A stretch of 64,000 nt of DNA from Telluribacter humicola (GCF_017355935.1 NZ_JAFIQT010000001.1:2232001-2296000); one strand, 5' to 3'. Counted from the first letter of the stretch, positions 11,332-27,831 are shown. Notes: generated from the sequence alone by a model not told the origin. Translations and numbers: made by a program.

Positions 11332-12840
11332 ATGACAGCCCAAAGTAAATCCATAAAAGGTACAAATCCCGATGTGGTTTTGATCGGTGCGGGAATCATG
11401 AGTGCTACTCTTGGTATGCTACTTAAAGAGTTACAGCCTGATCTGACCATTGAGATTATTGAAAGACTTGACGTAGCCGCCGCTGAGAGTTCCGATGCCT
11501 GGAACAATGCCGGCACCGGCCACGCGGCTTTCTGCGAACTTAACTATACACCCCAGCGTGCTGATGGGTCCGTTGATACCTCCAAAGCGGTCAAGATCGC
11601 AGAGTCGTTTGAGGTGTCACGGCAATTCTGGGCCTATCTTATTCAGAAGGAGCTCGTGCAGTTGCCCGATTCATTTATCCGGAGACTGCCCCACATGAGT
11701 TTTGTATGGGGGGATGAAAACGTAGATTATCTGAGGAAGCGGTACGAAGCCATGCGGGAGTGCCACTTGTTTGAAGATATGGAGTACTCGGAAGATCCCC
11801 GTCAGCTCAAAGAGTGGATGCCCCTGGTGATGGAAGGACGTGACCCCAACCAGAAGGTTGCTGCTACCTATATGCCTATCGGTACCGACGTAAACTTCGG
11901 AGCCCTGACCCGCAGTATGTTTGAAAGTCTGCAGCAGATGGAAGGAGTAACCCTGCACTTCGACCAGGAGGTAAATGACCTGGATCGCAATAAGAATGGC
12001 TGGGAAATACGTGTTAAGGATACAAGGACGGATAAGAAAAGAAAGATACGGGCCAAGTTCGTGTTTATCGGTGCGGGTGGTGGCTCATTGCCGCTGCTGC
12101 TGAAATCCGGTATCCCCGAAGGAAAAGGTTTCGGTGGATTCCCGGTAAGTGGTCAGTGGCTACGTTGTACCAATCCGGAGGTGATCAATCGTCACCATGC
12201 CAAAGTATACGGTAAAGCTTCGGTAGGCTCACCACCGATGTCGGTACCTCACCTGGATACCCGCATGATCAAAGGAAAGCAGGAGCTGTTGTTTGGCCCT
12301 TACGCGGGCTTTACGACCAAGTTCCTCAAGCAGGGCTCGTACTTTGACCTGCCGCTTTCGGTGAAGCTGCAGAACATCCGCCCCATGATCTCGGCGGGTC
12401 TGCACAATATTCCCCTTACCCGGTATCTCATTGACCAGGTACGCCAGTCGCCCGAAGACAAGTTTGAGGCCCTGAAAGAGTACTTCCCCGAAGCCCGCAT
12501 GGAGGACTGGGAACTGGAAGTAGCCGGAAAACGGGTACAGGTAATCAAGAAGGATCAGAAAGGCGGTGGTGTACTGGAGTTTGGTACCGAGGTAGTAAGC
12601 GCCGCCGATGGTAGCATTGCAGCCCTGTTAGGTGCCTCACCGGGTGCCTCTACGGCCGTGTCCATCATGCTGACCCTGCTGGAGCGTTGCTTCCCCAATC
12701 AGCTCCAGTCGGAGGCCTGGCAGCAAAAGCTCAGAGACATGATACCGTCCCACGGAAAGTCTCTAGCCAAAGATGCCCAGCTCTGCCGCGAAATACGTGA
12801 CTACACCAGCGAAGTACTCGGCCTGGAAATGGTAGGGTAG
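11332..12840 (+). CDS. mqo: Malate:quinone oxidoreductase
   Basis: A 502-residue FAD-dependent, membrane-associated enzyme that oxidises malate to oxaloacetate and passes electrons to the quinone pool in the TCA cycle. The Rossmann motif VVLIGAGIMSATLGMLL (residues about 15-31), the SSDAWNNAGTGHAAFCELNYTP segment and the C-terminal GASPGASTAVSIML segment are diagnostic. Length is standard. Its last 26 codons are duplicated at 14581-14658 together with the terminator, a sign of recombination with the neighbouring lipoprotein array. Confidence 0.97.
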   Translation: MTAQSKSIKGTNPDVVLIGAGIMSATLGMLLKELQPDLTIEIIERLDVAAAESSDAWNNAGTGHAAFCELNYTPQRADGSVDTSKAVKIAESFEVSRQFWAYLIQKELVQLPDSFIRRLPHMSFVWGDENVDYLRKRYEAMRECHLFEDMEYSEDPRQLKEWMPLVMEGRDPNQKVAATYMPIGTDVNFGALTRSMFESLQQMEGVTLHFDQEVNDLDRNKNGWEIRVKDTRTDKKRKIRAKFVFIGAGGGSLPLLLKSGIPEGKGFGGFPVSGQWLRCTNPEVINRHHAKVYGKASVGSPPMSVPHLDTRMIKGKQELLFGPYAGFTTKFLKQGSYFDLPLSVKLQNIRPMISAGLHNIPLTRYLIDQVRQSPEDKFEALKEYFPEARMEDWELEVAGKRVQVIKKDQKGGGVLEFGTEVVSAADGSIAALLGASPGASTAVSIMLTLLERCFPNQLQSEAWQQKLRDMIPSHGKSLAKDAQLCREIRDYTSEVLGLEMVG

Positions 12841-12861
12841 TGGCTAGTTTAAGTTTAGTTT

Positions 12862-12908
12862 ATAAACACAGAGAGCCTGTCAGTTGCTGACAGGCTCTCT
12901 GTGTTTAT
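12862..12908. terminator. Bidirectional terminator after mqo
   Basis: A 22-bp perfect stem with TTG loop (core CACAGAGAGCCTGTCAG). It serves mqo on the plus strand and, through the former propeller-gene tail, the minus strand. A near copy lies at 14674-14716. Confidence 0.9.
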
Positions 12909-12920
12909 GGAGATCAAAGC

Positions 12921-12988
12921 TTAGTGCTTTTGTTTAGCTACAAAAATATCATTCGAACGGGATATAAGGGTAGTTGTTCCGAAAGTAG
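12921..12988 (-). pseudogene. 3' stub of a propeller-lipoprotein gene
   Basis: Read on the minus strand, the sequence codes for a peptide ending SNDIFVAKQKH and a stop, matching the C-terminus of the gene at 14731-16131 (SNDIFVAKYKH, stop) at exactly the same distance from the terminator (1810-bp offset). About 23 codons remain. The rest of the gene is missing and the stop of the next array gene follows at 13002. It is therefore a leftover of a duplication or insertion event. Confidence 0.85.
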
Positions 12989-13001
12989 CCTAGCCTGTAC
13001 C

Positions 13002-14255
13002 TTACTCTTTGTACGTAGCAACAAAATTATCTGTTTGTCCCGCGGAGGTCAGGTTGGTGCCTGCTATAGTGGGAGTACCTTCGAAGGTACCCAGGAGGTG
13101 GATGATGCCGCCTTTACCCAGCACAATCTTTCTAACTGCTTCATTCTGGAGACCTCCTTCGCGTATTACCCATTTCAGAGAGCCGTTTTTATCATACTTT
13201 GCTATCATCACATCGGTACCTCCACTGGAAGTAAGCGTTTGTCCCTCAATAGTTTTGGTACCACTAAAAGTAGCAGCTAAATAGAAATCTCCATTTAAAC
13301 TAACAACTATATCACTTACGGTAGACGTTTCCTTGTGCCATTCTATCCCTCCATTACTGTTTAGTTTTGTAGTTACAGCTCCGGTCTGAACATAGCTGTT
13401 ACCAGCGCCATCTACTCCTATATGCCTCCCCTCTCCCCAATTAGCCTGGCGTACCGCGTCTATCCACTGCTGTGTACCGTCGGGAGTATATTTTACTGCA
13501 AAGGAGGTATATCCATTAACATCTATACCCTCGAACGTAGGGCCTGAAGCAGTAAAGCCGGACATAAATACGTTACCTGCCTGATCAAGGGCTAATCCAA
13601 AGCCAAAATCCGCACTGTTTCCTCCTAGCTGCTTGACCCATTGTAGGGTACCTTCTTTGGTCACCTTGAGCAGAAAGATATCCTCTCTGCCTCCCAATTT
13701 TACATCCGGTGATTTTGAAGTTAGCTCAGTTGAACCAAAGTTGACAGTGCCAGAAAACCAGCCGGTCATATAGGTGTTTCCAGCCTCATCAGTAACAATA
13801 TTAACTGGGAGCAAACTGCCAGAACCTGTTTTAGATAGAATCCACCGGAAAGTGCCGTCCTTGGTATAGCTAGCGAGGTACACCGCACCCTCCCCGGATT
13901 GTCCAAAGTCATCCCTACTACCTAAGTTCCCGTGGGCTATATAAATAGTACCTGTCGCATCTACAGCCACCAACTTGTTTGAAGGATCAGCAATTTGTTT
14001 CAGATCATTCTTCCATTGTATCACTCCGCTATTGGTATATTTTGCAATGAAATGTCCATCCTGATTTCCCATCATTAACAGATCGCCCTGCGGGTCCCGT
14101 GCAAGGCTGTATATATCATCAGATCCTGTCCCCCCTGTTCGCCAAGCTCCTAATGCTTGAGGTAAAGTGGAGGGGGATGGCTCTAATTCGTGATCCTGAC
14201 AGCCCGTCAGTAGTGATACAGTTAAAAGGGTTGTCAGAATAGTGATTTTTTTCAT
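13002..14255 (-). CDS. Seven-repeat SBBP beta-propeller lipoprotein (array gene 9, last in the series)
   Basis: A 417-residue lipoprotein with lipobox LLTGC, the mature end starting Cys-Gln-Asp-His. Seven repeats follow, anchored on GDLLMMG, GTIYIAH, GNTYMTG, GNVFMSG, GNSYVQT, GDFYLAA and GIIHLLG, each ending in a 'W...' strand. SBBP repeats (PF06739) form one blade each, so this is one full propeller. It is the most diverged member; with the gene at 25096 it shares a LGGRED/IGGRED segment in blade 3 and a similar far-upstream sequence. It ends FVATYKE. It probably sits on the outer membrane; ligand unknown. It is flanked by a 220-bp direct repeat. Confidence 0.85.
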   Translation of the reverse strand: MKKITILTTLLTVSLLTGCQDHELEPSPSTLPQALGAWRTGGTGSDDIYSLARDPQGDLLMMGNQDGHFIAKYTNSGVIQWKNDLKQIADPSNKLVAVDATGTIYIAHGNLGSRDDFGQSGEGAVYLASYTKDGTFRWILSKTGSGSLLPVNIVTDEAGNTYMTGWFSGTVNFGSTELTSKSPDVKLGGREDIFLLKVTKEGTLQWVKQLGGNSADFGFGLALDQAGNVFMSGFTASGPTFEGIDVNGYTSFAVKYTPDGTQQWIDAVRQANWGEGRHIGVDGAGNSYVQTGAVTTKLNSNGGIEWHKETSTVSDIVVSLNGDFYLAATFSGTKTIEGQTLTSSGGTDVMIAKYDKNGSLKWVIREGGLQNEAVRKIVLGKGGIIHLLGTFEGTPTIAGTNLTSAGQTDNFVATYKE

Positions 14256-14580
14256 GTTGGATAGGTGTATTATATTGAACTCAATTTTTACTGTTTTTTA
14301 ATTTCGGGACATACTCATCAATCAGAGCGGATAGTCATTAAAAAATATCCATCTACAAGTACCACTTATAAATGGATATACTAAATCAGGAGCCTGATGC
14401 TTTGAATCATAGATTCGGAAAAGACTAGTTAGTGAGTTGTATAGTAACTCATCAGGTAGTGGTTGAGCTGTGAGAAGGCAAATGTGCATCATTTAGCCCT
14501 GAGGAGCAAAATTTATACAATAACTTTTTATTAAATTTATTCAACGGTATCTCTTTGGATCGCATCCTAATAGAAGGTTC
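14256..14580 (-). promoter_or_regulatory. Upstream region of array gene 9 with promoter-like box
   Basis: 325 bp without a gene. On the minus strand TTG (14544-14542) and TATTGTAT (from 14522) are separated by 19 bp, the spacing of Bacteroidota promoters, although the -7 box is a poor TAnnTTTG match. The same arrangement occurs far upstream of the gene at 25096. It predicts a leader of about 250 nt. A small ATCAGG/CCTGAT hairpin lies near 14385-14399. Confidence 0.35.
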
Positions 14581-14658
14581 CTGGCCAAAGATGCCCAGCT
14601 CTGCCGCGAAATACGCAACTACACCAGCGAAGTACTCGGTTTGGAAATGGTAGGGTAG
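14581..14658 (+). pseudogene. Truncated copy of the mqo 3' end
   Basis: These 78 bp code for the last 26 codons of mqo, in frame to the stop, with only one visible amino-acid change (REIRN for REIRD). Nothing of mqo precedes them: the sequence upstream is the promoter region of array gene 9. The fragment has no start codon and is a recombination scar. Confidence 0.9.
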
Positions 14659-14673
14659 TATAATTATATATTA

Positions 14674-14716
14674 ATACACAGAGAGCCTGTCAGTTACTGA
14701 CAGGCTCTCTGTGTAT
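14674..14716. terminator. Bidirectional terminator, copy 2
   Basis: A 20-bp stem with TTA loop, near identical to the terminator at 12862-12908. It ends array gene 8 on the minus strand, 15 bp after its stop. Confidence 0.9.
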
Positions 14717-14730
14717 ATGGAGATCAAAGA

Positions 14731-16131
14731 TTAGTGCTTGTATTTAGCAACGAAAATGTCATTAGAATGGGAGGTAAGCGTAGTTGTTCCGAATGTAGCA
14801 CTACCAAGAAATGATCCGGTCACCGTCATATTTCCTAGTGCATCAACAGCAATGCCATGACCTTCATCAATGCCACCCGTTGCTCCCGCTTTCTCCGCCC
14901 AAACGAAAGTCCCAGTAGAAGTATATTTCATGATAAAAATATCTCTATCGAAAAGTCCTCCAGTAGTAAGCGTTGTAGTTCCAAAAGTTGCGACATCAGA
15001 ATAAGTCCCGGTAACATATACATAGCCATTATCATCTGCAGAAATACTAAATCCAAGATCAAAACCTGTTCCTCCTCCTCTTCTTGCCCACAGGACTTCT
15101 CCATTACTGCTATATTTGGTTAAAAAGACGTCCATCCATCTTGTGCCAGAAAGCACATGTGTACCAAATGTGGCAGTATCAGTAAAGGATCCAGTTAAAT
15201 ATACATCACCATTTTTATCCGTAACAATACTACCCCCGTCATCGTGTTGAGGGCCTCCCGCTTTCTGTACCCACTGAAGTTGACCATGTTGATTATATTT
15301 AGCAATAAAAATGTCAGCAAGACCACTTGAAGTGAGAGTAGTTGTATTAAAGATAGCTCTCCCATTGAATAATCCAGTTACATATACATTTCCGCTTTTA
15401 TCTACTACTATTCCATTACCTTGATCAATTTCACCAAAGCTTCCTATGATACTTGTGGCTTTTTGGACCCACTGCCCCTCTCCATTTGTATTATATTTGG
15501 CAATAAAAATATCACTTACGTCACTGGAAGTAAGTGTAGTTGCGCCAACAACTATTTTTTCATCGAAATTACCTGTCACATATACATTACCACTTTCATC
15601 GACTGTAATACTACGCCCGAAATCATTGCCTGCACCTCCTATTTGCTGAACCCATTGTACCTCTCCACTGCTACTATATTTGACTATGAATGCATCATAG
15701 ACAGTAGCAATATGATTTGAGCCATTGGAAACAATTGTAGTGGAGCCAAATGTAGCCGAATGCTGAAAGCGTCCAGTAACATATACATTACCCTGAATAT
15801 CTACAGCAATAGCTTGTCCATTGTCGGAACCTGATCCTCCTCCATTTTTGGCCCACTCTACTTCGCCGTTGCTATTATATTTAACAACAAACATATCATT
15901 ATATCCACTGCCAGAAAGTGTAGTTGTTCCGAAATTTGCCTTGTCATAGAAGAATCCAGTTACATATGTGTTGCCGTTTTTGTCCACAGCTACTCCCAAA
16001 CCTTCGTCATGACCAGAGCCACCTTCACTCCATGCCATTACATCTTCGGGTAGAGGTTCCAGATTATGATCCTGACAGCCTGTTACAAAGGCTATCAAGA
16101 GTGAAGTTAGTAGAATAGCTATTCTTTTCAT
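14731..16131 (-). CDS. Seven-repeat SBBP beta-propeller lipoprotein (array gene 8)
   Basis: A 466-residue lipoprotein with signal peptide MKRIAILLTSLLIAFVTGC and mature start CQDHNLEP. The seven repeats are very regular: GNTYVTGFF, GNVYVTGRF, GNVYVTGNF, GNVYVTGLF, GDVYLTGSF, GYVYVTGTY and GNMTVTGSF, each followed by 'FGTTTL', a variable loop, 'D.F..KY' and 'W'. It belongs to the N-terminal subtype PEDVMAW. It is the likely source of the stub at 12921. The acidic stretch behind the lipidated Cys resembles Bacteroidota lipoprotein export signals, so surface exposure is possible but inferred. The 5' leader is shared with array genes 2, 3, 4 and 6. Confidence 0.9.
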   Translation of the reverse strand: MKRIAILLTSLLIAFVTGCQDHNLEPLPEDVMAWSEGGSGHDEGLGVAVDKNGNTYVTGFFYDKANFGTTTLSGSGYNDMFVVKYNSNGEVEWAKNGGGSGSDNGQAIAVDIQGNVYVTGRFQHSATFGSTTIVSNGSNHIATVYDAFIVKYSSSGEVQWVQQIGGAGNDFGRSITVDESGNVYVTGNFDEKIVVGATTLTSSDVSDIFIAKYNTNGEGQWVQKATSIIGSFGEIDQGNGIVVDKSGNVYVTGLFNGRAIFNTTTLTSSGLADIFIAKYNQHGQLQWVQKAGGPQHDDGGSIVTDKNGDVYLTGSFTDTATFGTHVLSGTRWMDVFLTKYSSNGEVLWARRGGGTGFDLGFSISADDNGYVYVTGTYSDVATFGTTTLTTGGLFDRDIFIMKYTSTGTFVWAEKAGATGGIDEGHGIAVDALGNMTVTGSFLGSATFGTTTLTSHSNDIFVAKYKH

Positions 16132-16196
16132 GATGTAGTTGTGTAAGTGTGAATATATTGATTTGGATATGAATTTTTTAAGTGTGATCTGTTTTG

Positions 16197-16240
16197 ACAG
16201 AAAAAGCCAGGCAGTTATTGGTTGAGATAGCTGCCGGGTT
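16197..16240 (-). terminator. Stem-loop after array gene 7
   Basis: An imperfect stem (GGCAGTTAT with ATAGCTGCC, G-U pairs) lies directly behind the stop at 16245, with an A-run on the plus strand that gives a T-run on the minus strand. It resembles the stems after array genes 4, 5 and 6. Confidence 0.65.
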
Positions 16241-16244
16241 AATA

Positions 16245-17645
16245 TTATTCTTTATAGCGGGCTAAGAAGATGTCAGTATCACCGGCTGCGGTAAGTGTTC
16301 TACCGGCTAGTGTGGTACTATTAGAATAATACCCTATAACAAATAAATATCCGGCAGGACTCAGCGCTAATCCATGCGCAACATCTTCCTTTGTACCTCC
16401 GTCCCTAAGCGACCACTGAACTTGGCCGTCTCTATTATACTTGGTTATAAATATATCTCTTTCACCATTAGAGGCTAAAGCGTGTCCTCCTATGGTTATT
16501 GAGTTTAAAAACGATCCAGTCACAAATACATCACTATTCTTATTTACGGCCACTCCGTAAGCAAAGCCAAGGAATTCACCAATTTTTTTTGTCCAAACGA
16601 AGGTGCCACTGCCAGTTATTTTTGTAATGTATGTAGCCCCGGAAGAAGCTGATAAGGCAGTTTCCCCAAACGCCACTGTTTCTCCACCTACTGCTCCCGC
16701 TACGTAAATATTCTTGTCCTCATCAATAGTTATACTTTGCCCATACGTACCGGTACTTCCTTGAGTTGTTTTTACCCACTGGGCAACCCCATTGTTATCG
16801 TATTTTGCAATGAAGACTTCATCCAAACCAAGATTAGAAGTAATAGTTATATTACCAAAAGACACTCCACCAAAGCCTGAGGTAGCTACTTTACCTGTTA
16901 CATATACATTACCGTCAATATCTATGGCTATATCATTTCCGGTATCCCAATGTATTCCCCCAGCACTTTGTGCCCACTGAAATATACCATCAGGGTTAAG
17001 CTTGGCTACGAAGATCTCTGTATTATTGATATAGCGGGTTCCTTGGGAGTTGTTTAGATTGAAGTTGCCAAAAGTTACTGTATTATCGAAAGTACCTGTG
17101 ATAAATACATTACCAACGCCATCTACGGCTATACCAGAGCCATATTCATTTATCTCTCCAGTACCTCTTTGCACCCATAAAATACTACCGTTGCCATCCA
17201 GCTTAAGAATAAATACATCAGTAATAATGGATGTAAAAGTTGTTTCTCCGAATGTGGATGTACCAACAAATGTTCCAATGATATATACATTGCCATTACC
17301 ATCAACTGCTATATCATTTCCCTGATCATTATTAGTCCCCCCGGCTTTGAATGCCCATAAAACATCGCCATTGCTGCTGTATTTGACAATAAATACGTCA
17401 CTACTGCCGGTAGATGTAAGCGTTATAGAGCCAAAGGTAACTGTGCCGGTGAAGGAGCCTGTGGCATACACATTCCCGCTATTGTCTACCGTTGTGGCAT
17501 ATCCTCGATCTTCTGTTGGTCCGCCTGTGCTCCAGGCAGTCTCTTCCAATGGTGGATTGTTTGGATCTGGTTCAAAAACGTGATCCTGGCAGCCTGTTAC
17601 AAAGGCTATGAGTAGTGAGGTTAGTAGAATTGCAGCTTGTTTCAT
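16245..17645 (-). CDS. Seven-repeat SBBP beta-propeller lipoprotein (array gene 7)
   Basis: A 466-residue lipoprotein, signal peptide MKQAAILLTSLLIAFVTGC, mature start CQDHVFEPDPNNPP (the 'NNPP' subtype shared with array genes 1 and 5). Seven repeats: GNVYATG, GNVYIIG, GNVFITG, GNVYVTG, KNIYVAG, SDVFVTG and GYLFVIG. It ends FLARYKE. Loop sequences between blades differ strongly from its neighbours while the signal peptide is almost identical to that of array gene 8, which points to shuffling or conversion limited to the 5' end. Confidence 0.9.
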   Translation of the reverse strand: MKQAAILLTSLLIAFVTGCQDHVFEPDPNNPPLEETAWSTGGPTEDRGYATTVDNSGNVYATGSFTGTVTFGSITLTSTGSSDVFIVKYSSNGDVLWAFKAGGTNNDQGNDIAVDGNGNVYIIGTFVGTSTFGETTFTSIITDVFILKLDGNGSILWVQRGTGEINEYGSGIAVDGVGNVFITGTFDNTVTFGNFNLNNSQGTRYINNTEIFVAKLNPDGIFQWAQSAGGIHWDTGNDIAIDIDGNVYVTGKVATSGFGGVSFGNITITSNLGLDEVFIAKYDNNGVAQWVKTTQGSTGTYGQSITIDEDKNIYVAGAVGGETVAFGETALSASSGATYITKITGSGTFVWTKKIGEFLGFAYGVAVNKNSDVFVTGSFLNSITIGGHALASNGERDIFITKYNRDGQVQWSLRDGGTKEDVAHGLALSPAGYLFVIGYYSNSTTLAGRTLTAAGDTDIFLARYKE

Positions 17646-17686
17646 GGTATGGATAAGGAAATTGAATATGAGAATAGTTCGAAACT

Positions 17687-17729
17687 AAAACCAGGTGGCT
17701 GTCGCTGTACGCTTCAGCCACCTGGTTTT
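17687..17729 (-). terminator. Terminator after array gene 6
   Basis: A perfect 15-bp stem (AAAACCAGGTGGCTG) with a 13-nt loop just behind the stop at 17732. The sequence differs from the other stems in the array. Confidence 0.9.
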
Positions 17730-17731
17730 CC

Positions 17732-19084
17732 TTACTGATTAAAGGATGCTACATAAATATCCGGCTGGCCGGCAGAGGTGAGGGTAGTGGAGCCAAAAAG
17801 TGCTGTGTTGGTAAATGATCCTGTTGCAAGGACCTTGTGGTTGCTTCCTGCCACAATGCTTAACCCCCGGTCGGCTCCGGGGCCTCCTAGCTTTTGAGCC
17901 CATTGAAAATCACCCTGGTTGGTGTATTTAGCAATGGCGACATCCGTACCGCCGCTGGAGGTAAAAGAGGTGGTGCCAAAAGTAGCTGTGCCATTAAAAT
18001 CTCCGATGAGATACACATGACCGATGGGATCTACGGCTATGTCATTTCCGCCATCGGGCTGGTTGCCACCGGCTCGCTTGGCCCATTGAAAGGTACCATT
18101 TGTGTCGTACTTAGTAAGAAAGATGTCTCCTGCACCTTCGGAAGTAAGGGTAGTAGTGCCAAAGGTGATCATACCGGAGAATACTCCCGTAATAAATACG
18201 TTGCCGTCTCCATCTACAGCAATTCCATAGGCCTCGTCTTTACTGGTTAGCCCCGCCCATTGCGACCACTGATGGTCTCCCTGACTATTGTATTTGGTGA
18301 TGAATACATCAAAATTATTTAGGAAGTTCTGGAAGTAGCCGGTAATATAGGCATTGCCCTGCTTGTCTACAGCAAGGTCTGTACTTACTTCCAGGGAAGG
18401 AGAAAATCCAAGACTTCTTGCCCACTGGAGGTCTCCATTACTAGTGTATTTGATCAAAAAGGTATCATTTACACCCGATGCACCGTAACTGGTTGAGCCG
18501 AAAGTGCCGGTCCCTTCAAAGCTACCCGTCACGTATACGTTACCAGATTCGTCTACGGCAATACCACTAGCAATCTCTCCCGATATGCTGTTGGATGAGG
18601 GGCCACCTGTATTGCGGGCCCACTGTACTTCGCCATGGGGGTTGAATTTAAAGGTAAAAACATCATTGGCACCGCTTGACGTAAGTAGGGCTGTACCAAA
18701 GGTGATCCTGCCCCGGAAACTCCCGGTGAGGTACACATTGCCACTGGCGTCGACCGCCATGCCTCCAATACTGGATGAATTGGTAGCTGTCGGTTGCTGG
18801 ACCCACAGTATATCGCCGGTGGGACTGTACTTGGCTATGAAAATAGTGACACCACCGGCTGGTGAGGTGAGGGATTTGGAGCCAAAGGTGGCCGACTGGG
18901 TGAAGTACCCTGCTACATATACGTTGCCACTATGATCGGTGGCAATATGCTCGCCCTGATCAAAGGCAGGCCCACCCGCCCGCCAAGCCATGACATCTTC
19001 AGGATGTGGTTCCAGGTTATGATCCCGGCAGCCTAATACGAAGGCTAAAAGAAGTGAGGTTAGTAGAATAGTTACTCTTTTCAT
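17732..19084 (-). CDS. Seven-repeat SBBP beta-propeller lipoprotein (array gene 6)
   Basis: A 450-residue lipoprotein with signal peptide MKRVTILLTSLLLAFVLGC and mature start CRDHNLEP (Arg in place of the usual Gln at +2). It has the PEDVMAW subtype N-terminus. Seven repeats: GNVYVAG, GNVYLTG, GNVYVTG, GNAYITG (with a shortened blade carrying NNFDVFITKY), GNVFITG, GHVYLIG and HKVLATG. It ends DIYVASFNQ. Codon choice is richer in G+C than in the neighbours at 16245 and 19177, so the array members do not share one compositional history. Confidence 0.9.
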   Translation of the reverse strand: MKRVTILLTSLLLAFVLGCRDHNLEPHPEDVMAWRAGGPAFDQGEHIATDHSGNVYVAGYFTQSATFGSKSLTSPAGGVTIFIAKYSPTGDILWVQQPTATNSSSIGGMAVDASGNVYLTGSFRGRITFGTALLTSSGANDVFTFKFNPHGEVQWARNTGGPSSNSISGEIASGIAVDESGNVYVTGSFEGTGTFGSTSYGASGVNDTFLIKYTSNGDLQWARSLGFSPSLEVSTDLAVDKQGNAYITGYFQNFLNNFDVFITKYNSQGDHQWSQWAGLTSKDEAYGIAVDGDGNVFITGVFSGMITFGTTTLTSEGAGDIFLTKYDTNGTFQWAKRAGGNQPDGGNDIAVDPIGHVYLIGDFNGTATFGTTSFTSSGGTDVAIAKYTNQGDFQWAQKLGGPGADRGLSIVAGSNHKVLATGSFTNTALFGSTTLTSAGQPDIYVASFNQ

Positions 19085-19134
19085 GGTGTAGATGTGTTAG
19101 TGTGAATGGATAAACACGATCGGATATGACAGAA

Positions 19135-19174
19135 AAAGCCCAGCAGCTACTGGTTGAGGTAGCTACCGGGCTTT
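19135..19174 (-). terminator. Terminator after array gene 5
   Basis: A stem AAAGCCCAGCAGCTAC with GTAGCTACCGGGCTTT (two mismatched pairs, 8-nt loop) two bases behind the stop at 19177. Confidence 0.8.
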
Positions 19175-19176
19175 CA

Positions 19177-20451
19177 TTATTCTTTATATCGGGCTATAAA
19201 TAGATTTCCTCCACTTGCGGAAAAGGTTTGGCCAGCAAGGGTAGTATTGTTAAAAAATGAGCCGTATACATATATATTACCAGCAGGACTTAGAGTTATA
19301 CCGTAGGCACTTTCACTGGAAGAGGTTCCATCCGTTCTAATCCATTTAAGCGTACCATCACTGGCCAGTTTAGCTATGTAGATATCTGATCCTCCACTGG
19401 ATGTAAGGGTTTGTCCGAGAATGTTTACTGTACCATTAAAGTTACCGGTTATAAATACTTCGCCCTGCGCATTGGCTGCTATATCTGCGGCAGAAATTTG
19501 ATGTATCCATTGGACAGTGCCGTTGCTATTGATTTTACCTATACTATAGTCTGAGTCAACATAAACATTTCCTGCATCATCCACTTCTACACTCTGCCCC
19601 CAGCCTGTTCCTAATGTCGTTATCCACTGTAAGGCGCCCTGGGGGTTGTACTTTGCAATATTTCCGGCACCATTGTCCTCTGCTATTGTTCCAGTTATGT
19701 AGAAGTTTCCCTCCTTATCTGTTGTCATATTAACGGCCACATCGATCCCGCTTTTACCAACCTGCCTGACCCATTGATACTCACCATTCGTATTAAGTCT
19801 GGCGATGAAAAAGTCATGTGTAGTTAGGCGGGGGTTATCACTGCTTCGGGGAGTCATTCTAACTCCGTTCACCATTGTAGCATTGAATCTAAAAGATCCT
19901 GCGATATAAATATTGTCAGACTGGTCTATAGCAATCGCTAATATTTCACTATCACTACTCAATGTTTCATCCAGTTTTATCCATTGAATTTCTCCTTGAC
20001 TCGAGTATTTTACGACAATAAAGCCACTGCCATTAATTGTTGTCCCACCAATAGTGGCGGTATGGGTAATCTTACCCGCAGCGTATACATTGCCATGGCT
20101 GTCGACAGCTATGCGATAAAAATAATTATACCCATCACCTCCTACCTTTTGGGCCCACAATACTTCTCCTGATGAGTTGTATTTAACAAGATAGGAATTA
20201 ATAAAATTAGATGATTCCGGACCAGTAAGTGTTACACTGCCAAAGGTGGCCGTATTGCTATATACACCAGCCACATATACACTTCCGTCTTTGTCGCTAT
20301 AAATGTCATATGCATAAGAAATAGGGCCTCCTCCAAGCCAGGCAGTTTCGCCTAGTGGTGGATTATTTGGATCTGGCTCAAAAACGTGATCCTGGCAGCC
20401 TGATACGAGAGCCACCGTTAACGAGGTCAGTAGAAGTACGACTTTTTTCAT
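19177..20451 (-). CDS. Seven-repeat SBBP beta-propeller lipoprotein (array gene 5)
   Basis: A 424-residue lipoprotein starting at the ATG at 20451 (MKKVVLLLTSLTVALVSGC). The frame runs 15 codons further upstream, but only this start gives a signal peptide with lipobox. Mature start CQDHVFEPDPNNPP, the subtype of array gene 7. Seven repeats: GSVYVAG, GNVYAAG, DNIYIAG, GNFYITG, GNVYVDS, GEVFITG and GNIYVYG. Blade 5 is short and lacks the 'FG...LTS' strand. It ends LFIARYKE. Surface location and ligand are unknown. Confidence 0.88.
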   Translation of the reverse strand: MKKVVLLLTSLTVALVSGCQDHVFEPDPNNPPLGETAWLGGGPISYAYDIYSDKDGSVYVAGVYSNTATFGSVTLTGPESSNFINSYLVKYNSSGEVLWAQKVGGDGYNYFYRIAVDSHGNVYAAGKITHTATIGGTTINGSGFIVVKYSSQGEIQWIKLDETLSSDSEILAIAIDQSDNIYIAGSFRFNATMVNGVRMTPRSSDNPRLTTHDFFIARLNTNGEYQWVRQVGKSGIDVAVNMTTDKEGNFYITGTIAEDNGAGNIAKYNPQGALQWITTLGTGWGQSVEVDDAGNVYVDSDYSIGKINSNGTVQWIHQISAADIAANAQGEVFITGNFNGTVNILGQTLTSSGGSDIYIAKLASDGTLKWIRTDGTSSSESAYGITLSPAGNIYVYGSFFNNTTLAGQTFSASGGNLFIARYKE

Positions 20452-20520
20452 GATGTAGATAGGAAAATATGAATAATTACATGTAAAGAATATCACTCTA
20501 AGTATGGTGGGAGATAACAG

Positions 20521-20565
20521 AAAAAGCCCGGAAGCTACTGCTTAAGATAGCTGCCGGACTTTTTC
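20521..20565 (-). terminator. Terminator after array gene 4
   Basis: A stem AAAAAGCCCGG...AGCTA with TAGCTGCCGGACTTTTT behind the stop at 20570; one mismatch and a small bulge. Confidence 0.85.
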
Positions 20566-20569
20566 TGTA

Positions 20570-21952
20570 CTACTTAAATTTAGCTACGAACACATCATTA
20601 CCCCCACTGGATGTAAGGATAGTGGTGCCAAAGGTAGCGGTACCTGAGAAGTATCCGGTTGTGTACGCCATACCGTGTTCATCTACGGCAATACCTTCCC
20701 CTGAATCGTCACCGGCCCCTCCGGCCTTTTGAGTCCATTGCAGATTTCCATTGTTATCGAACTTCGCCACGAAGATATCGTCGCCACCATAATGAACCAG
20801 GTTAAGTCTAACCCATTCTCCTGCTGGTGCTCCTGGTGACGATAAATTATAATCGAGTTGTGAAACTGAAGTAGTGCCTACTATATAAACATTTCTACTT
20901 TTGTCTACTGCTATATCCAGCCCTCTATTAGTCCTACCCATACTGCCTATAACCCAAGACCACTGCACTTCTCCATTCGTATCAAGTTTAGAAACGTATA
21001 TGGCATCAGGATTGAACCCACCTAGGTAATTCTCACCCGTAGTATAGATATTCCCACTCTCATCTACTGCAATAGCATACCTATATCCTCGAACACCACG
21101 TCGAGCCCAAACAAATTCTCCGGTGCTACTGTATTTGGCAATGAATTGATCATCTATCCTGGTTCCTGATCTGGGAAGTGTAGTGGTGCCAAAGTCAGCG
21201 GATCCAAAGTAGTATCCTGTTACATAAGCGTTACCGTTTTCATCTACGGCTATACTATTTCCGCTATCTGAGTTTGTTCCTCCTGCCTGCTGGACCCATA
21301 GTACGTCACCATTGCTGCTATACTTGGCAATAAATACATCCGTGTGTAAATCACCGCTGCCTCGGGAAGTAAGGGAAGTGGAGCCAAAGGTAACTGTACT
21401 ATAAAAGCTACCTGTAACATAGGGGTTCCCGCTCTTATCCACGGCAACGTCTGTACCCTGATCACCACCAGTACCTCCTGCGCTTCTTACCCATTGCACC
21501 TCTCCGTTGCTGTTGTACTTGCCAATGAATATATCTGAGCTTCCAGCAGAGGTAAGCGATTGGGAACCAAAGGTAGCTGTACCTGAGATGTATCCAGTAA
21601 TATAGATGTTACCCTGCTCATCTAATGCAATACTATGTCCCTGATCATCGAGAGGTCCTCCGGCTCTGTGTGCCCACAAGACTTCACCTTTGTTGTTGTA
21701 CTTGACGATGAAAATATCTGATGTACCATTGGAGGTAAGGGTAGTAGAGCCAAAAGTAGCGGTACCGGTAAAGTACCCTGTAACATAGGTATTGCTGCTC
21801 TGATCTACGGCAATATCTTGTCCTGAATCTCCGGCAGGTCCTCCCGCCCGCCAGGCCATGGCGTCTTCCGGATGCGGTTCCAGATTGTGATCCTGACAGC
21901 CTGTTATAAGGGCTATGAGGACTGAGGTTAGTAGAATAGCAACTCTTTTCAT
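20570..21952 (-). CDS. Seven-repeat SBBP beta-propeller lipoprotein (array gene 4)
   Basis: A 460-residue lipoprotein, signal peptide MKRVAILLTSVLIALITGC, mature start CQDHNLEPHPED. Seven repeats: SNTYVTG, GNIYITG, GNPYVTG, GNAYVTG, GNIYTTG, RNVYIVG and GMAYTTG. It is a close relative of array gene 2: blades 1-3 and 7 are nearly the same while blades 4-6 differ. The 5' block (21651-21829) differs from 24671-24849 at about 4 of 180 positions, but the adjoining 170 bp differ at about 23. This is typical of gene conversion. It ends DVFVAKFK. Confidence 0.92.
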   Translation of the reverse strand: MKRVAILLTSVLIALITGCQDHNLEPHPEDAMAWRAGGPAGDSGQDIAVDQSSNTYVTGYFTGTATFGSTTLTSNGTSDIFIVKYNNKGEVLWAHRAGGPLDDQGHSIALDEQGNIYITGYISGTATFGSQSLTSAGSSDIFIGKYNSNGEVQWVRSAGGTGGDQGTDVAVDKSGNPYVTGSFYSTVTFGSTSLTSRGSGDLHTDVFIAKYSSNGDVLWVQQAGGTNSDSGNSIAVDENGNAYVTGYYFGSADFGTTTLPRSGTRIDDQFIAKYSSTGEFVWARRGVRGYRYAIAVDESGNIYTTGENYLGGFNPDAIYVSKLDTNGEVQWSWVIGSMGRTNRGLDIAVDKSRNVYIVGTTSVSQLDYNLSSPGAPAGEWVRLNLVHYGGDDIFVAKFDNNGNLQWTQKAGGAGDDSGEGIAVDEHGMAYTTGYFSGTATFGTTILTSSGGNDVFVAKFK

Positions 21953-22022
21953 GGTGTAGATGTGTAAGTGTGAATAGAGTATTGACTGAAGAATGCTTCT
22001 TCAGACATGATTGGACATTCAG

Positions 22023-22062
22023 AAAAAGTCCGGCTACTACTTGTAGTAGTTGCCGGACTTTT
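22023..22062 (-). terminator. Terminator after array gene 3
   Basis: A stem AAAAGTCCGG..CTACTAC with GTAGTAG..CCGGACTTTT (2-nt bulge) directly behind the stop at 22067. Confidence 0.85.
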
Positions 22063-22066
22063 ATAG

Positions 22067-23482
22067 CTACTTAAACTTTGCTACGAAAATGTCACTACCA
22101 CCACCGGATGTAAGGGTAGTGGCACCTAAGATAGTGGTACCATTAAAGCTGCCTGTAATATATACATTACCGCTCTGGTCTACGGCAATGCTTTGGCCAG
22201 CCTCTGTATCAGTACCTCCTTCATTGCGGGCCCAGTGTACTTTGCCATCGCTGCCGTACCTGGCTATAAATACATCATCTGAGCCTTTAGAGCTAAGGGT
22301 AATTTGCGGGTCGCTTAGATTTGGTGGCACTGCGCCGAAGTAGACAGGTGTACCTCTGATATAGCCCGTAACATATATGTCGCCAGTTTCATTAACGGCA
22401 ATGTCGTGCCCTCCATCATCTAGTTGATTCTCATAACCACCTCCAATATTCTGTGCCCACTGTACTTCACCACTATTATTGAACTTAGCCAGAAATGCAT
22501 CAGATGTGGCTATTCCTGCCTGAAGTCTTATGGAGCCAATAAAAAATGAATCCCTAAACGACCCTACTATATATATGTTACCTGCTTTATCCACTGCGAT
22601 ACTGTGTGTAAAGTCTGATCTGTAACTTCCCGCACTCCTAACCCAAAGAGCTTCACCTGAACTACTGTACCTGGCCACAAACACATCTGAACTTACACTG
22701 GAAGTAATAGATGAATGAGTGACTGTACCAAAGGTAGCAGTTACTGAGAAGGTACCTGTGACATATATAGTACCACTCTCATCTACGGTGATGGCAGATC
22801 CCTGATCAGCACTGACACCCCCAGCTTTCTGAGCCCACTGTACATCGCCATTGCTGTTGTACTTGGCTATAAATATGTCAAAGTCGCCACTGGACACGAG
22901 TGAGTTAGAGCCAAAGCTGGCTGTGCTACTGAAGTACCCGGTCACGTACACAAAGCCATTCATATCCACGGCTACACCGAATCCCTGATCAAGTTCTGTT
23001 CCTCCTGTTTTCTGAGCCCAAAGTACATCGCCATTACTACTGTACTTGACCAGGAACATATCATCGTTGCCATTGGATGCAAGCGAGGTGGAGCCAAATG
23101 TGATAATATTCTCAAAGTATCCGGTTATGTATACATTGCCATTCCTATCCACGGCTATATCTCTACCTTCATCCCGGCCATTACCACCGGCCTTATGAGC
23201 CCATAGTACTTCTCCTTTGCGATCGTACTTTACGATAAAGATATCCCGGTTGCCGGTGCTGGTAAGTGTACTGTTTCCGAAAGTGGCTGTACCATGGAAG
23301 AATCCGGTAACATAGGTGTTACCGCTCATATCAACGGCAATACTGTGTCCCAGATCTTCCTCTGTTCCACCCGCCCGCCAGGCCATGACGTCCTCGTCGG
23401 GATGAGGTTCCAGATTGTGATCCTGACAGCCTGTTACAAAGGCTATGAGTAGTGAGGTCAGTAAAATAGCTCCTTTTTTCAT
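22067..23482 (-). CDS. Seven-repeat SBBP beta-propeller lipoprotein (array gene 3)
   Basis: A 471-residue lipoprotein starting at 23482 (MKKGAILLTSLLIAFVTGC); the upstream in-frame ATG at 23524 would bury the signal peptide. Mature start CQDHNLEPHPDEDVMAW. Seven repeats: GNTYVTG, GNVYITG, GFVYVTG, GTIYVTG, GNIYIVG, GDIYVTG and GNVYITG. Blade 6 has an enlarged loop (VYFGAVPPNLSDPQITL). It sits between the two closely related genes 2 and 4 but is not closest to either, so those two are not simple tandem neighbours. It ends DIFVAKFK. Confidence 0.92.
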   Translation of the reverse strand: MKKGAILLTSLLIAFVTGCQDHNLEPHPDEDVMAWRAGGTEEDLGHSIAVDMSGNTYVTGFFHGTATFGNSTLTSTGNRDIFIVKYDRKGEVLWAHKAGGNGRDEGRDIAVDRNGNVYITGYFENIITFGSTSLASNGNDDMFLVKYSSNGDVLWAQKTGGTELDQGFGVAVDMNGFVYVTGYFSSTASFGSNSLVSSGDFDIFIAKYNSNGDVQWAQKAGGVSADQGSAITVDESGTIYVTGTFSVTATFGTVTHSSITSSVSSDVFVARYSSSGEALWVRSAGSYRSDFTHSIAVDKAGNIYIVGSFRDSFFIGSIRLQAGIATSDAFLAKFNNSGEVQWAQNIGGGYENQLDDGGHDIAVNETGDIYVTGYIRGTPVYFGAVPPNLSDPQITLSSKGSDDVFIARYGSDGKVHWARNEGGTDTEAGQSIAVDQSGNVYITGSFNGTTILGATTLTSGGGSDIFVAKFK

Positions 23483-23552
23483 GGTGTAGTTGTGTAAGTG
23501 TGGATGGAGTATTGGATGTTCCATGCTTCATCAAGCATGACTTGGTTAGAAA

Positions 23553-23594
23553 AAGAGCGCGGCTGCTACTAGTTAAAGTAGCGGCCGCGCTCTT
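23553..23594 (-). terminator. Terminator after array gene 2
   Basis: A GC-rich stem AAGAGCGCGGCTGCTAC with GTAGCGGCCGCGCTCTT, 8-nt loop, behind the stop at 23599. A second small inverted repeat CATGCTT/AAGCATG lies at 23523-23540. Confidence 0.9.
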
Positions 23595-23598
23595 ACTA

Positions 23599-24972
23599 TT
23601 ACTTAAACTTGGCTACAAATACATCGGTATCACCACTTGAGGTAAGGGTAGTGGTACCAAAGGTAGCCGTCCCCAGGAAGCTTCCTGTTGTGTACGCCGC
23701 ACCGTGTTCATCTACGGCAATTCCTGATCCATGGTCGTTACCAGACCCTCCGGCACTTCTGGCCCAGTTCAGATCTCCATTATTTTCGAACTTAGCTACA
23801 AAAATATCGTAACTGCCATAATGAATTAGGTCAATTTCAAGTCCCACTGCTGAACTTGAAATTGGAGAGATGCTGATTCGTGAACTCTCGGTTCTACCTA
23901 TCAGATATACATTCCCACTTATATCTACGGCTATATCTGATCCATATTCGGTTCCACCCATTGTGCCTATGAATCTGGACCATTGCATTTCACCGTTAGT
24001 AGTATATTTAGCAAAATGTATTTCAGAATTGAACGCACCTATGTAAATAGCTCCCGTAACATAGACATTCCCACTTCCATCTACTGCGATTCCGGACCCG
24101 TAACTACCCATACCACCCTCTTGCCGGGCCCAAAGTGCCTCTCCGGTATTGCTATATTTAACAACGAATAAATTAGAATCGGTAGCTCTGGAATTTGCTA
24201 CTGCAGTAAGTGTAAATGCGCCAAAGGTGGCAGTTCCTGTGAAGGTCCCTACTATATAGGCGTTACCGCTTTCATCTACGGCAACACCACCACCGCTATC
24301 GAAACTTGTTCCTCCTGCCTGCTGGGCCCATAGTACATCCCCATTGCTGTTGTACCTGGCAATGAATGCATCACTGCTACCTCGGGAGGTAAGGGAGGTG
24401 GAGCCAAAGGTGGCGGTACCAATGAAGCTGCCCGTGACGTATGGGTTACCGCTCTTATCCACGGCAATGTCAAGCCCCTGTTCACTACCACTGCCTCCTG
24501 CGCTTCTTACCCATTGTACCTCCCCATTGCTGTTGTACTTACTAATGAAGATATCTGAGCTTCCAGCAGAGGTAAGGGATTGGGGGCCAAAGGTGGCTGT
24601 ACCTGTGATGTACCCTGTTACATAGATGTTTCCCTGCTCATCCATCGCAATACCATATCCCCCATCATCGAGAGGTCCTCCGGCTCTGTGTGCCCACAAG
24701 ACTTCACCTTTGTTGTTGTACTTGACGATGAATATATCTGATGCACCATTGGAGGTAAGGGTAGTAGAGCCAAAAGTAGCGGTACCGGTAAAGTACCCTG
24801 TAACATAGGTATTGCCGCTCTGATCTACGGCAATATCTAGTCCTGCATCTGCGGTAGGGCCGCCCGCCCGCCAGGCTATGACGTCTTCAGGATGAGGTTC
24901 CAGATTATGATCCTGGCAGCCTGTCACAAAGGCTACGAGTAAAGAGGTTAGTAAGATGGTTGCTTTTTTCAT
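23599..24972 (-). CDS. Seven-repeat SBBP beta-propeller lipoprotein (array gene 2)
   Basis: A 457-residue lipoprotein, signal peptide MKKATILLTSLLVAFVTGC, mature start CQDHNLEPHPED. Seven repeats: GNTYVTG, GNIYVTG, GNPYVTG, GNAYIVG, GNVYVTG, GNVYLIG and GAAYTTG. It is the partner of array gene 4, colinear with it without gaps for at least the first 480 bp. The middle blades differ, including a longer loop (VANSRATDSNLF) in blade 4. Blade 6 of both has the unusual 'HYG..DIFVAKF' transition with a hydrophobic insertion. Ligand and cell location beyond lipidation are unknown. Confidence 0.92.
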   Translation of the reverse strand: MKKATILLTSLLVAFVTGCQDHNLEPHPEDVIAWRAGGPTADAGLDIAVDQSGNTYVTGYFTGTATFGSTTLTSNGASDIFIVKYNNKGEVLWAHRAGGPLDDGGYGIAMDEQGNIYVTGYITGTATFGPQSLTSAGSSDIFISKYNSNGEVQWVRSAGGSGSEQGLDIAVDKSGNPYVTGSFIGTATFGSTSLTSRGSSDAFIARYNSNGDVLWAQQAGGTSFDSGGGVAVDESGNAYIVGTFTGTATFGAFTLTAVANSRATDSNLFVVKYSNTGEALWARQEGGMGSYGSGIAVDGSGNVYVTGAIYIGAFNSEIHFAKYTTNGEMQWSRFIGTMGGTEYGSDIAVDISGNVYLIGRTESSRISISPISSSAVGLEIDLIHYGSYDIFVAKFENNGDLNWARSAGGSGNDHGSGIAVDEHGAAYTTGSFLGTATFGTTTLTSSGDTDVFVAKFK

Positions 24973-25048
24973 GGTGTAGAAAGTGTAACTGGATGTAAAA
25001 CATGGAATAAAATGCAGGATGTGGTAGTAAAGTATGCATTAACAGAAA

Positions 25049-25088
25049 AGCGGCAAGTCTACTTTAACTGGTAGTACACTTGCCGCTT
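25049..25088 (-). terminator. Terminator after array gene 1
   Basis: An 11-bp perfect stem AAGCGGCAAGT/ACTTGCCGCTT with an 18-nt loop, 7 bp behind the stop at 25096. Confidence 0.85.
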
Positions 25089-25095
25089 CTAAGTA

Positions 25096-26424
25096 TTATT
25101 GATTATATCTGACGATAAACAACTCCAAACCTCCCATAGAATTCAGAGAGGTGCCAGCCAGGGTAGTAGAGCCACTAAAGGTGCCGGTAACATACAGCGT
25201 CCCTCCGGGTCCCAGTCCCAGACGACTACCATATTCATTCTCAGTACCTCCGTCCCGTTTCATCCAGAGGAGACTGCCATTCTGGTCGAGCTTGGCCAGG
25301 AAGACATCCGTACCGCCGGTGGAGGTCAGCGAGTTGCCTTCAACGGTTAGGGTTCCTTCAAAACTTCCCGTTACGTACACATATCCATCGGCACTGGCTT
25401 TAATATCCTGAATAGTGGCATTCCCAAGCTGTTTGTTCCATTGTACTACTCCGTTGCTGTTGATCCTGGAGATGATGTTTCCCGACTTGACAAAAGAGTT
25501 ACCAGCCTCATCCACCGTAATTTTATCTCCCCGCAGGGGCGAGCCCCGTCGTACTCCGATGGCCCACTGCAGGGTACCATCCGAAGCAAACCTGGTGGCG
25601 TACGAATCATTTGAAAAGTAAAACTGAATGTCGCCAAAGCGGGCGGGATGAGAGGTGGAGTAGCCCGAAGTGTATACATGACCGGAGTTATCTACTGCGA
25701 CACTGTTGCCAATATCTATCTGAGCACCTCCTACTTTTCTGGCCCACAAAAAAACGCCATCGGTATTCAGCTTGGCTATAAATGCGTCTTCGCGCCCGCC
25801 TATCTTAACCTCACTGGGAGTGGCCGTAAGAGATATGTTACCGAATACTACTGTACCCTCAAAAGTCCCCGTCAGGTATAGGTTGCCGCTGGCATCTGCG
25901 TCAATATCGAAGGCCGGACTTACATTGAACACTGAATGCGGTGACTCTACCTGCTGTACCCAAATCAACTGCCCGTCGGTACTGAATTTGGCAATGAATA
26001 TACCTCTACCCGTTAGGGTAGTTCCCCCAATGGTCACTGAGTTGTAAAAGCCACCGGTTGCATATACATTATTATTTCCATCTACGGCTATGCCATATAC
26101 AAAGGCCGAGTTATCGGTCTCAATATTCTGCACCCACTGCACTTCGCCGGTAGCAGCATATTTTACTATGAAGGGACTCCTGCGTTGACTGGATCCGGTG
26201 ATAGTAATTGATCCAAAAGTAGCCGAACCCTGAAAGCTCCCGGCGGTATATGAATTACCATTTTTGTCAATAGCAAAGTCTGCAATCTCATTGATCGGGC
26301 CTCCGGCTTTCCAGGCCATACCACCGGTAGGCGGATTGTTGGGGGTGGGTTCAAGGTTATGATCCTGGCAGGCAATCAGAAATACTAGTAACGTGGAGAT
26401 CAGTAGAATCGAGACTTTATTCAT
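25096..26424 (-). CDS. Seven-repeat SBBP beta-propeller lipoprotein (array gene 1, first transcribed)
   Basis: A 442-residue lipoprotein starting at 26424 (MNKVSILLISTLLVFLIAC); the frame is open for 22 more codons upstream without sense as a signal peptide. Mature start CQDHNLEPTPNNPP. Seven repeats: GNSYTAG, NNVYATG, GNLYLTG, GHVYTSG, GNSFVKS, GYVYVTG and GTLYVTG. Like array gene 9 it has an IGGRED insertion in blade 3 and a short blade 5, so genes 1 and 9, at the two ends of the array, are a pair. It ends FIVRYNQ. Being first in the transcription direction, its promoter may feed the whole array if the intergenic stems leak. Confidence 0.88.
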   Translation of the reverse strand: MNKVSILLISTLLVFLIACQDHNLEPTPNNPPTGGMAWKAGGPINEIADFAIDKNGNSYTAGSFQGSATFGSITITGSSQRRSPFIVKYAATGEVQWVQNIETDNSAFVYGIAVDGNNNVYATGGFYNSVTIGGTTLTGRGIFIAKFSTDGQLIWVQQVESPHSVFNVSPAFDIDADASGNLYLTGTFEGTVVFGNISLTATPSEVKIGGREDAFIAKLNTDGVFLWARKVGGAQIDIGNSVAVDNSGHVYTSGYSTSHPARFGDIQFYFSNDSYATRFASDGTLQWAIGVRRGSPLRGDKITVDEAGNSFVKSGNIISRINSNGVVQWNKQLGNATIQDIKASADGYVYVTGSFEGTLTVEGNSLTSTGGTDVFLAKLDQNGSLLWMKRDGGTENEYGSRLGLGPGGTLYVTGTFSGSTTLAGTSLNSMGGLELFIVRYNQ

Positions 26425-26886
26425 AATTGTGCAGTTAAATTTATTAATGTTAAGTGTGTTGTCAGGGCCGGTAAGTTTGGAATAATGCATAGCGTGGAGC
26501 CGAAAGCTAGGTTTCTGACTTTCGGACTTGGTTACCTATACATGACAGATAGAACTATCAGAAGCCTGTTGTACGAAGTCAGACTTAGGAATAGTAAAAG
26601 GGAGGGATACTGGAAACCGGCCTGCTTTATGCCTCATACGAAGCAAGCAGGCCGGATAAGAAGCTGTAAATAAGGTAACTTATCGTTAGAAGAGCAACAG
26701 TTGCATAATATCTTTTTACTAATTTTATCCAACGGTCACTTACTTAGCTGCTGCTGCTTTTGGTTGATAATCAAAGCATTAGTGGAGGAATGTCTGTTAC
26801 TAAGGCCTGCATATTCTGATTAGAATAAGCTATGGGAACCGTGAGAGAAATCTTAGCCTTATATGAATAGTATGATGCAAACACCT
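26425..26886 (-). promoter_or_regulatory. Upstream region of the array with promoter-like box and leader hairpin
   Basis: About 460 bp without a credible gene. On the minus strand TTG (26732-26730), 19 bp, then TATTATGC (from 26710) resembles a Bacteroidota promoter. A sequence of about 50 bp around it is similar to the region upstream of array gene 9. The predicted leader of about 270 nt contains a perfect 11-bp stem CCGGCCTGCTT/AAGCAGGCCGG (26617-26655, 17-nt loop). That hairpin is either an attenuator-like element or the terminator of a lost array member. Confidence 0.35.
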
Positions 26887-26949: not shown

Positions 26950-27831
26950 TTAGAAATTGATTGCACGGTAGGTTTCTCCATTTACAGTATACGTCAGATT
27001 TTTGAGTTGATTTGGAATGGTACCGGCCGTGAAGTTTGCCTGAGTGTCACCCCAGATCAGGTTAAATCCATAGCCACCCCGTGGAGCTCCGGTACCGACA
27101 TAGCCGGGATAGGGAGCCTGGGGAGACATGATAGTGATTCTATTAGAAAGCTGAGAGAGTTTTACTCTTGTGCCATCCAGGGTCAGATACTGCGAGCCAT
27201 CACGAGCTCCGGTGCCGCCATCAAACAGCCAGTTTAGGTTAGTACCTGAGTACTCAAATACTTTCCACTCTTGCCGGGTGGCGAAGTTGGTACCCAAGTA
27301 GTTGTTTTCGGAAGCGATAACGGCATAGTTGTTACCATCTGTAACCCAGATATTCAGATACGAAACCAGGCCACCATTACTCATGCCACTCACACGCTCC
27401 CAGTTTACAGTTTCAAGTTTATTGATCTGTATTCCGTCGAGAGCACTGGTTCCATAGCCAACTTTTTGGCCACCACGGGGGGTACGGGCTGTAAAGCCGT
27501 CACCTTCCGGATTTTCTGACAGCACTATATCATTGTCCCAGGGTGCAGTGATCGTACTGTTGTTGTTTCTGATGTAGAAGGTTTCAAAGTTGGTCGCCAG
27601 AAAATCACTATGCGACAGGTGGGTAGCCACGGCATTGGCATTTACTGAAATTACTTTGTATTGACCATTCTCGTCAAGATGGGCAACATTCACTTTTTCA
27701 TTCACTGGTCCTTTTTTGGCTGCCTTAAGCGGACCATCTTGTGGTACAGGCAGACCAGACTCTGGTTGACAGCCCCACATGGCTATGGATACGGCTAAGG
27801 CGCAGCTTACTAGGGAAGATACTTTTAACAT
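26950..27831 (-). CDS. Lipoprotein of unknown function, 293 aa
   Basis: A 293-residue protein with signal peptide and lipobox (SIAMWGC, mature start CQPESG). A short basic linker (LKAAKKGPVNEK) follows, then an aromatic and Gly/Asn-rich body predicted to be mostly beta strand (GGLVSYLNIWVTDGNNYAVI, QEWKVFEYSGTNLNWLFDGG, TYTVNGETYRAINF). No SBBP repeat and no T9SS tail. I recognise no family. It precedes the propeller array in the same direction, but with its own strong terminator, so it is a separate unit. The body could be a jelly-roll or carbohydrate-binding type fold; this is speculation from strand pattern only. Confidence 0.7.
   Translation of the reverse strand: MLKVSSLVSCALAVSIAMWGCQPESGLPVPQDGPLKAAKKGPVNEKVNVAHLDENGQYKVISVNANAVATHLSHSDFLATNFETFYIRNNNSTITAPWDNDIVLSENPEGDGFTARTPRGGQKVGYGTSALDGIQINKLETVNWERVSGMSNGGLVSYLNIWVTDGNNYAVIASENNYLGTNFATRQEWKVFEYSGTNLNWLFDGGTGARDGSQYLTLDGTRVKLSQLSNRITIMSPQAPYPGYVGTGAPRGGYGFNLIWGDTQANFTAGTIPNQLKNLTYTVNGETYRAINF

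Follow-up and report, generated by a model that had tools for sequence, protein, structure and literature searches.

The window analysed here is a 64,000-nucleotide (nt) stretch of the 6.56 Mb Telluribacter humicola genome (positions 2232001-2296000 of contig NZ_JAFIQT010000001.1; Spirosomataceae, Cytophagales), and it contains an array of nine consecutive genes encoding seven-bladed propeller lipoproteins. We favor the view that the array genes probably encode surface lipoproteins that bind ligands, a family shaped by gene gain, gene loss and recombination into mosaics, with surface location and ligand binding being the parts of this view that we infer. Under this proposal, genes of the family arise and are lost, trade leaders and recombine into mosaics with their neighbors. 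Purifying selection would maintain the propeller scaffold while the rim at the top of the central channel would change more quickly, so that each member presents its own binding surface. The lipid tether at the N-terminus would enter the face formed by the AB and CD loops, leaving the variable face looking away from the membrane, and the array may be co-expressed from a shared upstream element.

As the first-pass annotation had claimed, nine intact open reading frames (ORFs) of a single plan follow one another on the minus strand at 13002-26424 (all coordinates are counted within the window), encoding products of 417-471 amino acids (aa) when counted from the conserved starts. We named these genes g1 (beginning at 13002) to g9 (beginning at 25096), and they are read in the direction g9 to g1. 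The first gene in transcription order is g9 (25096-26424, 442 aa), followed by g8 (23599-24972, 457 aa), g7 (22067-23482, 471 aa), g6 (20570-21952, 460 aa), g5 (19177-20451, 424 aa), g4 (17732-19084, 450 aa), g3 (16245-17645, 466 aa), g2 (14731-16131, 466 aa) and g1 (13002-14255, 417 aa). Mechanical ORF calls for g5 and g7 ran too far upstream; the extensions probably lie outside the genes, with the likely ATG codons at 20451 and 23482, respectively. All nine genes match the Pfam family SBBP (PF06739), with E-values from 6e-14 to 3e-42, and whole-protein identity between paralogues within the array is 32-70%.

Using a blade hidden Markov model (HMM) built from the array family itself, we counted exactly seven blades in 9/9 array genes, as had been claimed, with the blades inside one protein well diverged from each other (mean identity 29-51%). 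The claim that the fixed number is an unusual trait of the array did not hold up: all ten tested relatives outside both this array and its counterpart in a sister species (described below), drawn from three genomes, also have seven blades, so having seven blades characterizes the propeller family and does not set the array apart. We generated predicted structures with AlphaFold2, run on alignments of array proteins, for two of the nine members. Both g8 (predicted local distance difference test score, pLDDT, 90.1; predicted template modeling score, pTM, 0.89) and the divergent short member g1 (pLDDT 86.2, pTM 0.86) were modeled as complete, closed seven-bladed propellers. The strand order of the g8 model gives a 1+3 closure, in which residues 31-37, just after the leader, form the outer strand of blade 7 and the remaining three strands of that blade sit at the C-terminus. 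For both models, the best match in the PDB was the CylK propeller domain, with almost the full length aligned (template modeling (TM) scores of 0.75 for g8 and 0.70 for g1), and the sequence match to the CylK propeller has an E-value of 4e-55 and begins at CylK residue 243-251.

To locate the variable regions, we mapped the strands of the g8 model onto codon-aligned sequences of 17 array genes (nine from this window and eight from the sister species). Entropy peaks in the DA loops that join the blades (permutation p < 1e-4) and in the innermost strand (p 0.0013), and is low in the AB loops and in strands b and c; variability is greatest in the DA loop together with the initial half of the innermost strand. 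The strong divergence previously ascribed to inter-blade loops is thus correct for the DA loops, but it does not extend to loops in general and it also takes in the first half of the innermost strand. Within the repeat, the offsets -9, -7 and -5 from a conserved Asp stand out as variable. As a guard against circularity, these offsets were chosen on the nine paralogues and then tested on four separate orthologue pairs, where they again rank first: 46% of residues differ there, versus 19% in the rest of the body. The rank correlation between the paralogue and orthologue results is 0.85, and 3/4060 offset triples perform equally well. That positions chosen on paralogues predict where separate orthologue pairs differ upholds the first-pass claim of a variable face. 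Residues at these offsets are enriched in His, Gln, Arg and Tyr. In the g8/h7 pair, 76% of these ring positions differ. In the model, the variable positions lie at the channel's top rim. The strand order suggests that the lipid tether enters on the opposite, AB/CD-loop face, which would leave the variable face turned outward from the membrane. The active site of CylK likewise sits on the top face of its propeller.

The expected near-constant signal peptide and CQDH/CRDH lipid anchor are present throughout. The leader follows the pattern MKK..ILLTSLL.AFVTGCQDH.(L/F)EP, with CRDH in g4 only, and a lipobox (G/A)C lies at residues 18-19 in 9/9 proteins, the leader ending (G/A)C(Q/R)DH; these features were read directly from the sequence, without a predictor. 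The string CQDHNLEP is near, but not identical to, the acidic export signals of Bacteroidota. Surface exposure of the array propellers appears likely.

The sister species Telluribacter sp. SYSU D00476 (NZ_JAFEUV020000001.1) carries an eight-gene array, h1 to h8, at the same site, and comparison of the two arrays shows turnover with mosaic genes. Four orthologue pairs are collinear, namely g2/h1 (84% identity), g5/h3 (86%), g8/h7 (76%) and g9/h8 (71%), while g3, g6 and g7 here and h2 in the sister species have no orthologue in the other species. The gene g1 pairs with h5/h6; its place at the array end, against the internal position of h5/h6 in the sister species, indicates a moved gene. The same nine genes in fixed order are therefore not found in this relative, although four of them do keep their order. 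All array copies in both species are intact and carry the leader. Satellite lipoproteins encoded outside the arrays in each genome, such as gC19 (69% identical to g8), lack a clear orthologue in the other species. A dispersed array member with the same leader was observed on another contig (L041:4238-5605), 69% identical to g8 and with no sister orthologue seen, and it adjoins a frame (L041:6229-6708) holding a fragment of a second SBBP gene.

Segment trees provide the evidence for mosaicism. The genes g4 and h4 are sisters in blades 1-2 (support 100/100), but the same clade is rejected in blades 3-7 (approximately unbiased test, p-AU 1e-4), which makes g4/h4 a proven mosaic pair. Similarly, g6 groups with g8 in blades 1-2, weakly (76/73), but blades 3-7 reject this grouping (p-AU 0.002) and unite g8 with h7 (support 100/99). 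With the leader taken as 26 codons, the proportion of synonymous differences (pS) in g2/h1, g5/h3 and g8/h7 is 0.61-0.68 in the leader and 0.22-0.37 in the body, and because leader synonymous divergence exceeds that of the body in these three orthologue pairs, the comparison points to exchange of leaders among paralogues in particular pairs. The leader clade is rejected for g2/h1 (p-AU 0.014), and for g5/h3 and g8/h7 the tests are not significant alone (0.20 and 0.09); the leader of g5 is nearer to that of h5. Recent gene conversion of leaders across all genes was considered and rejected, since the mean leader pS of 0.55-0.59 means that most pairs were not recently converted.

Several observations weigh against reading the array as a family of surface ligand-binding lipoproteins. 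The first concerns selection. The ratio of nonsynonymous to synonymous substitution rates (omega) between the two species is 0.02-0.10 for flanking genes, 0.14-0.28 for the four clean orthologue pairs and 0.38 at ring positions, and in tests for positive selection on whole genes, per segment and at the ring, omega was below 1 in all. Selection on the array genes is purifying but relaxed, and the diversifying selection implied by the first-pass annotation was not found; purifying selection throughout, which that annotation had named as counting against a diversifying family, is largely what we see. The second concerns export. The surface lipoprotein export signal of Capnocytophaga consists of a polar or basic residue and then two acidic residues after the +1 Cys (PMC5080379), and CQDHNLEP has a single acid at +3 and another at +7, lacking the paired acids. 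SusD-like proteins of the Telluribacter genome, which are probably surface lipoproteins, have leaders that read roughly C-(N/S)-E-D-(L/F)-L-E, and the array leader resembles these only in part. In addition, the flanking genes tested (mqo, nucleoside hydrolases, NIF3, PEGA, TPR and YdjM-like genes, plus proteins without assignment) yielded no TonB transporter, SusD or partner enzyme, and the array is known from two species only. As a separate observation on divergence, the number of synonymous substitutions per site (dS) for g5/h3 is 0.33, below that of every flanking gene tested (0.44-1.22), which may reflect a later exchange between the lineages.

The same values could accommodate a neutral or dosage-driven amplification, in which a lipoprotein gene was duplicated in tandem, its similar copies recombine, and variation at the rim reflects weak constraint. 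Omega below 1 everywhere and raised across the whole gene rather than at the ring alone would fit this history, as would the four orthologues being simply conserved in order and the occurrence of adjacent SBBP matches in separate frames elsewhere in the family. Nevertheless, we consider it unlikely: not one array copy in either species has lost its reading frame or leader, copies at 32-50% identity are yet all open, and the ring is rich in His, Gln, Arg and Tyr and not in small neutral residues.

The sequences between and around the genes bear on how the array may be expressed and recombined. A stable hairpin with a T-run follows each gene, and folding bears out the individual stem-loops of the first-pass annotation, with z-scores over the intergenic hairpins of -3.9 to -9.0 and, in seven short intergenic spaces, -3.9 to -8.1. 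On the minus strand, these seven lie at 16132-16244 (z -3.9), 17646-17731 (-6.8), 19085-19176 (-6.3), 20452-20569 (-5.7), 21953-22066 (-7.4), 23483-23598 (-8.1) and 24973-25095 (-4.7), and the hairpins may serve as terminators or as graded attenuators. An AT-rich element of 28 nt, GATAAAATTAGTAAAAAGATATTATGCA, lies at 26702-26729 on the minus strand, about 280 nt before g9, and is a candidate promoter or operator of the array. It has only two matches in the genome with 3 mismatches allowed, each about 260-280 nt from a start codon, the second being at 14514-14541 (minus strand) before g1; a similar element precedes the sister array. Scans for sigma-70 promoters and terminators returned sites no commoner than in shuffled sequences and were not used as evidence. 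By eye, the long leader before g9 (26425-26700, minus strand) has two apparent hairpins, and h8 is preceded by comparable hairpins that differ in sequence; the stretch before g9 is perhaps a regulatory 5' untranslated region.

The recombination scar noted in the first-pass annotation is real and surrounds g1, which has on each side a copy of the mqo 3' end, of the terminator behind it and of the 3'-terminal part of a g2/h1-type propeller gene. An mqo 3'-end remnant at 14574-14659 (plus strand, approximate bounds from alignment), duplicated from the gene ending at 12840, stands right next to the second upstream element, and positions 12800-12841 and 14618-14659 are 95% identical. The long hairpin that separates mqo from the array as a terminator (12862-12904) recurs at 14676-14718 (strand unspecified), and a 3'-end stub at 12930-12990 (minus strand), downstream of g1, aligns with the 3' ends of g2 and h1. 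The simplest history, we infer, is that the whole array was duplicated in tandem from the mqo end to the upstream element, and that the first copy would then have lost all genes but one, so that g1 was left with its own copy of the upstream element.

The conserved leader and the hairpins could be the joints of an active diversification device, with recombination or expression acting at leader and hairpin so that bodies or sets of blades are swapped behind a constant anchor. We regard such a device as doubtful; if it does operate, the outward binding ring of surface receptors changes within a lineage. Somewhat more doubtful still is an expression-site and silent-cassette system, in which the promoter-proximal gene would be strongly expressed, the hairpins would silence the rest, and recombination at the shared leader would bring other bodies into the expressed position, causing phase or antigenic variation in a population. 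Its attractions are the conserved leader exchanged between paralogues, the hairpin and T-run behind every gene, the restriction of the shared upstream element to g9 and g1, and the unremarkable frequency of promoter-like sites. However, the first gene is the same orthologue in both species (g9/h8), and thus the presumed expression site does not turn over; moreover, each of the internal genes keeps an intact leader and start of its own, and exchange is seen only between species and not within a strain.

It is very unlikely that the propellers are enzymes with differing substrates, catalytic in the manner of CylK/BrtB or Vgb. CylK activity needs Arg105, supplied by its N-terminal domain; in the array proteins the propeller starts directly after the leader, and with that domain missing we rejected a CylK-type alkylase. 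The rim that would house the active site also varies more than any other part. Least probable, and scarcely so at all, is a recognition system of phage-exposed or kin-recognition propellers, with turnover driven by phage or by self/non-self recognition. Such pressure would leave turnover, mosaicism and a variable outward face like those seen here, but no effector, immunity or signaling partner was found among the flanking genes tested.

The array is bordered on one side by mqo (11332-12840) and on the other by a 293-aa gene without assignment (26950-27831, minus strand), followed by a nucleoside hydrolase gene. This 293-aa ORF is lipoprotein-like, has no Pfam match and is absent from the corresponding place in the sister species; immediately before it, on the upstream side at 27849-27913 (minus strand), is a DUF805 RNA of the cis-regulatory family RF03081, and the Rfam search gave no match inside the array. 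Inosine-uridine nucleoside hydrolase genes are found on each side of the array, several kb apart, at 6945-7910 (minus strand) and 28308-29432 (plus strand), and both likewise flank the sister array.

A strong match to the propeller was found in at least 48 of 151 genomes of the family. Among the matches listed, those of full length including the leader came only from the two Telluribacter genomes, two further genera gave partial ones, and a scan of genome contigs returned a single locus, the sister array; on present data, the tandem array looks genus-specific. Ligand specificity is not known for most SBBP proteins. The two arrays form a compact natural propeller series that covers orthologues, paralogues and recombinants from a pair of sister species. 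With many channel rims on one scaffold, the series is well suited to studying how ligand specificity arises in surface propellers of Bacteroidota, and to asking whether gene shuffling diversifies surface lipoproteins in environmental members of the phylum.

Literature searches on SBBP arrays found no relevant paper. A diversity-generating retroelement was rejected, as no reverse transcriptase scored above the cut-off and the one sub-threshold RVT_1 match in the genome lies on another contig. Other Spirosomataceae proteins matching Pfam SBBP share the repeat, and seven blades in the relatives tested, but their frames are mostly different, often larger, and lack the CQDH leader. The SBBP-type propeller domain of CylK (a Friedel-Crafts alkylase; PDB 7fh6/7ron) is a homologous seven-bladed propeller over nearly the full length. 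CylK is, however, a two-domain cyanobacterial enzyme, whereas the array consists of nine tandem genes whose products have a lipoprotein leader in place of the N-terminal Ca-binding domain with its Arg105. A functional parallel is offered by BtuG of Bacteroides (BT1954, BT2095), a seven-bladed surface lipoprotein of Bacteroidota that binds vitamin B12 in its central cavity (PMC10404256) and, like the array proteins, has one propeller on an N-terminal lipid tether. Its fold match is weaker (TM 0.38-0.39, lower in the list than CylK), and it works in complex with a TonB-dependent transporter and is not known as an array. Finally, Pereira and Lupas (2022; PMC9218822) describe repetitive beta-propellers amplified from single blades, with amplification continuing; compared with the propellers described there, those of the Telluribacter array have well-diverged blades, and the array duplicates and exchanges whole genes and segments rather than single blades.
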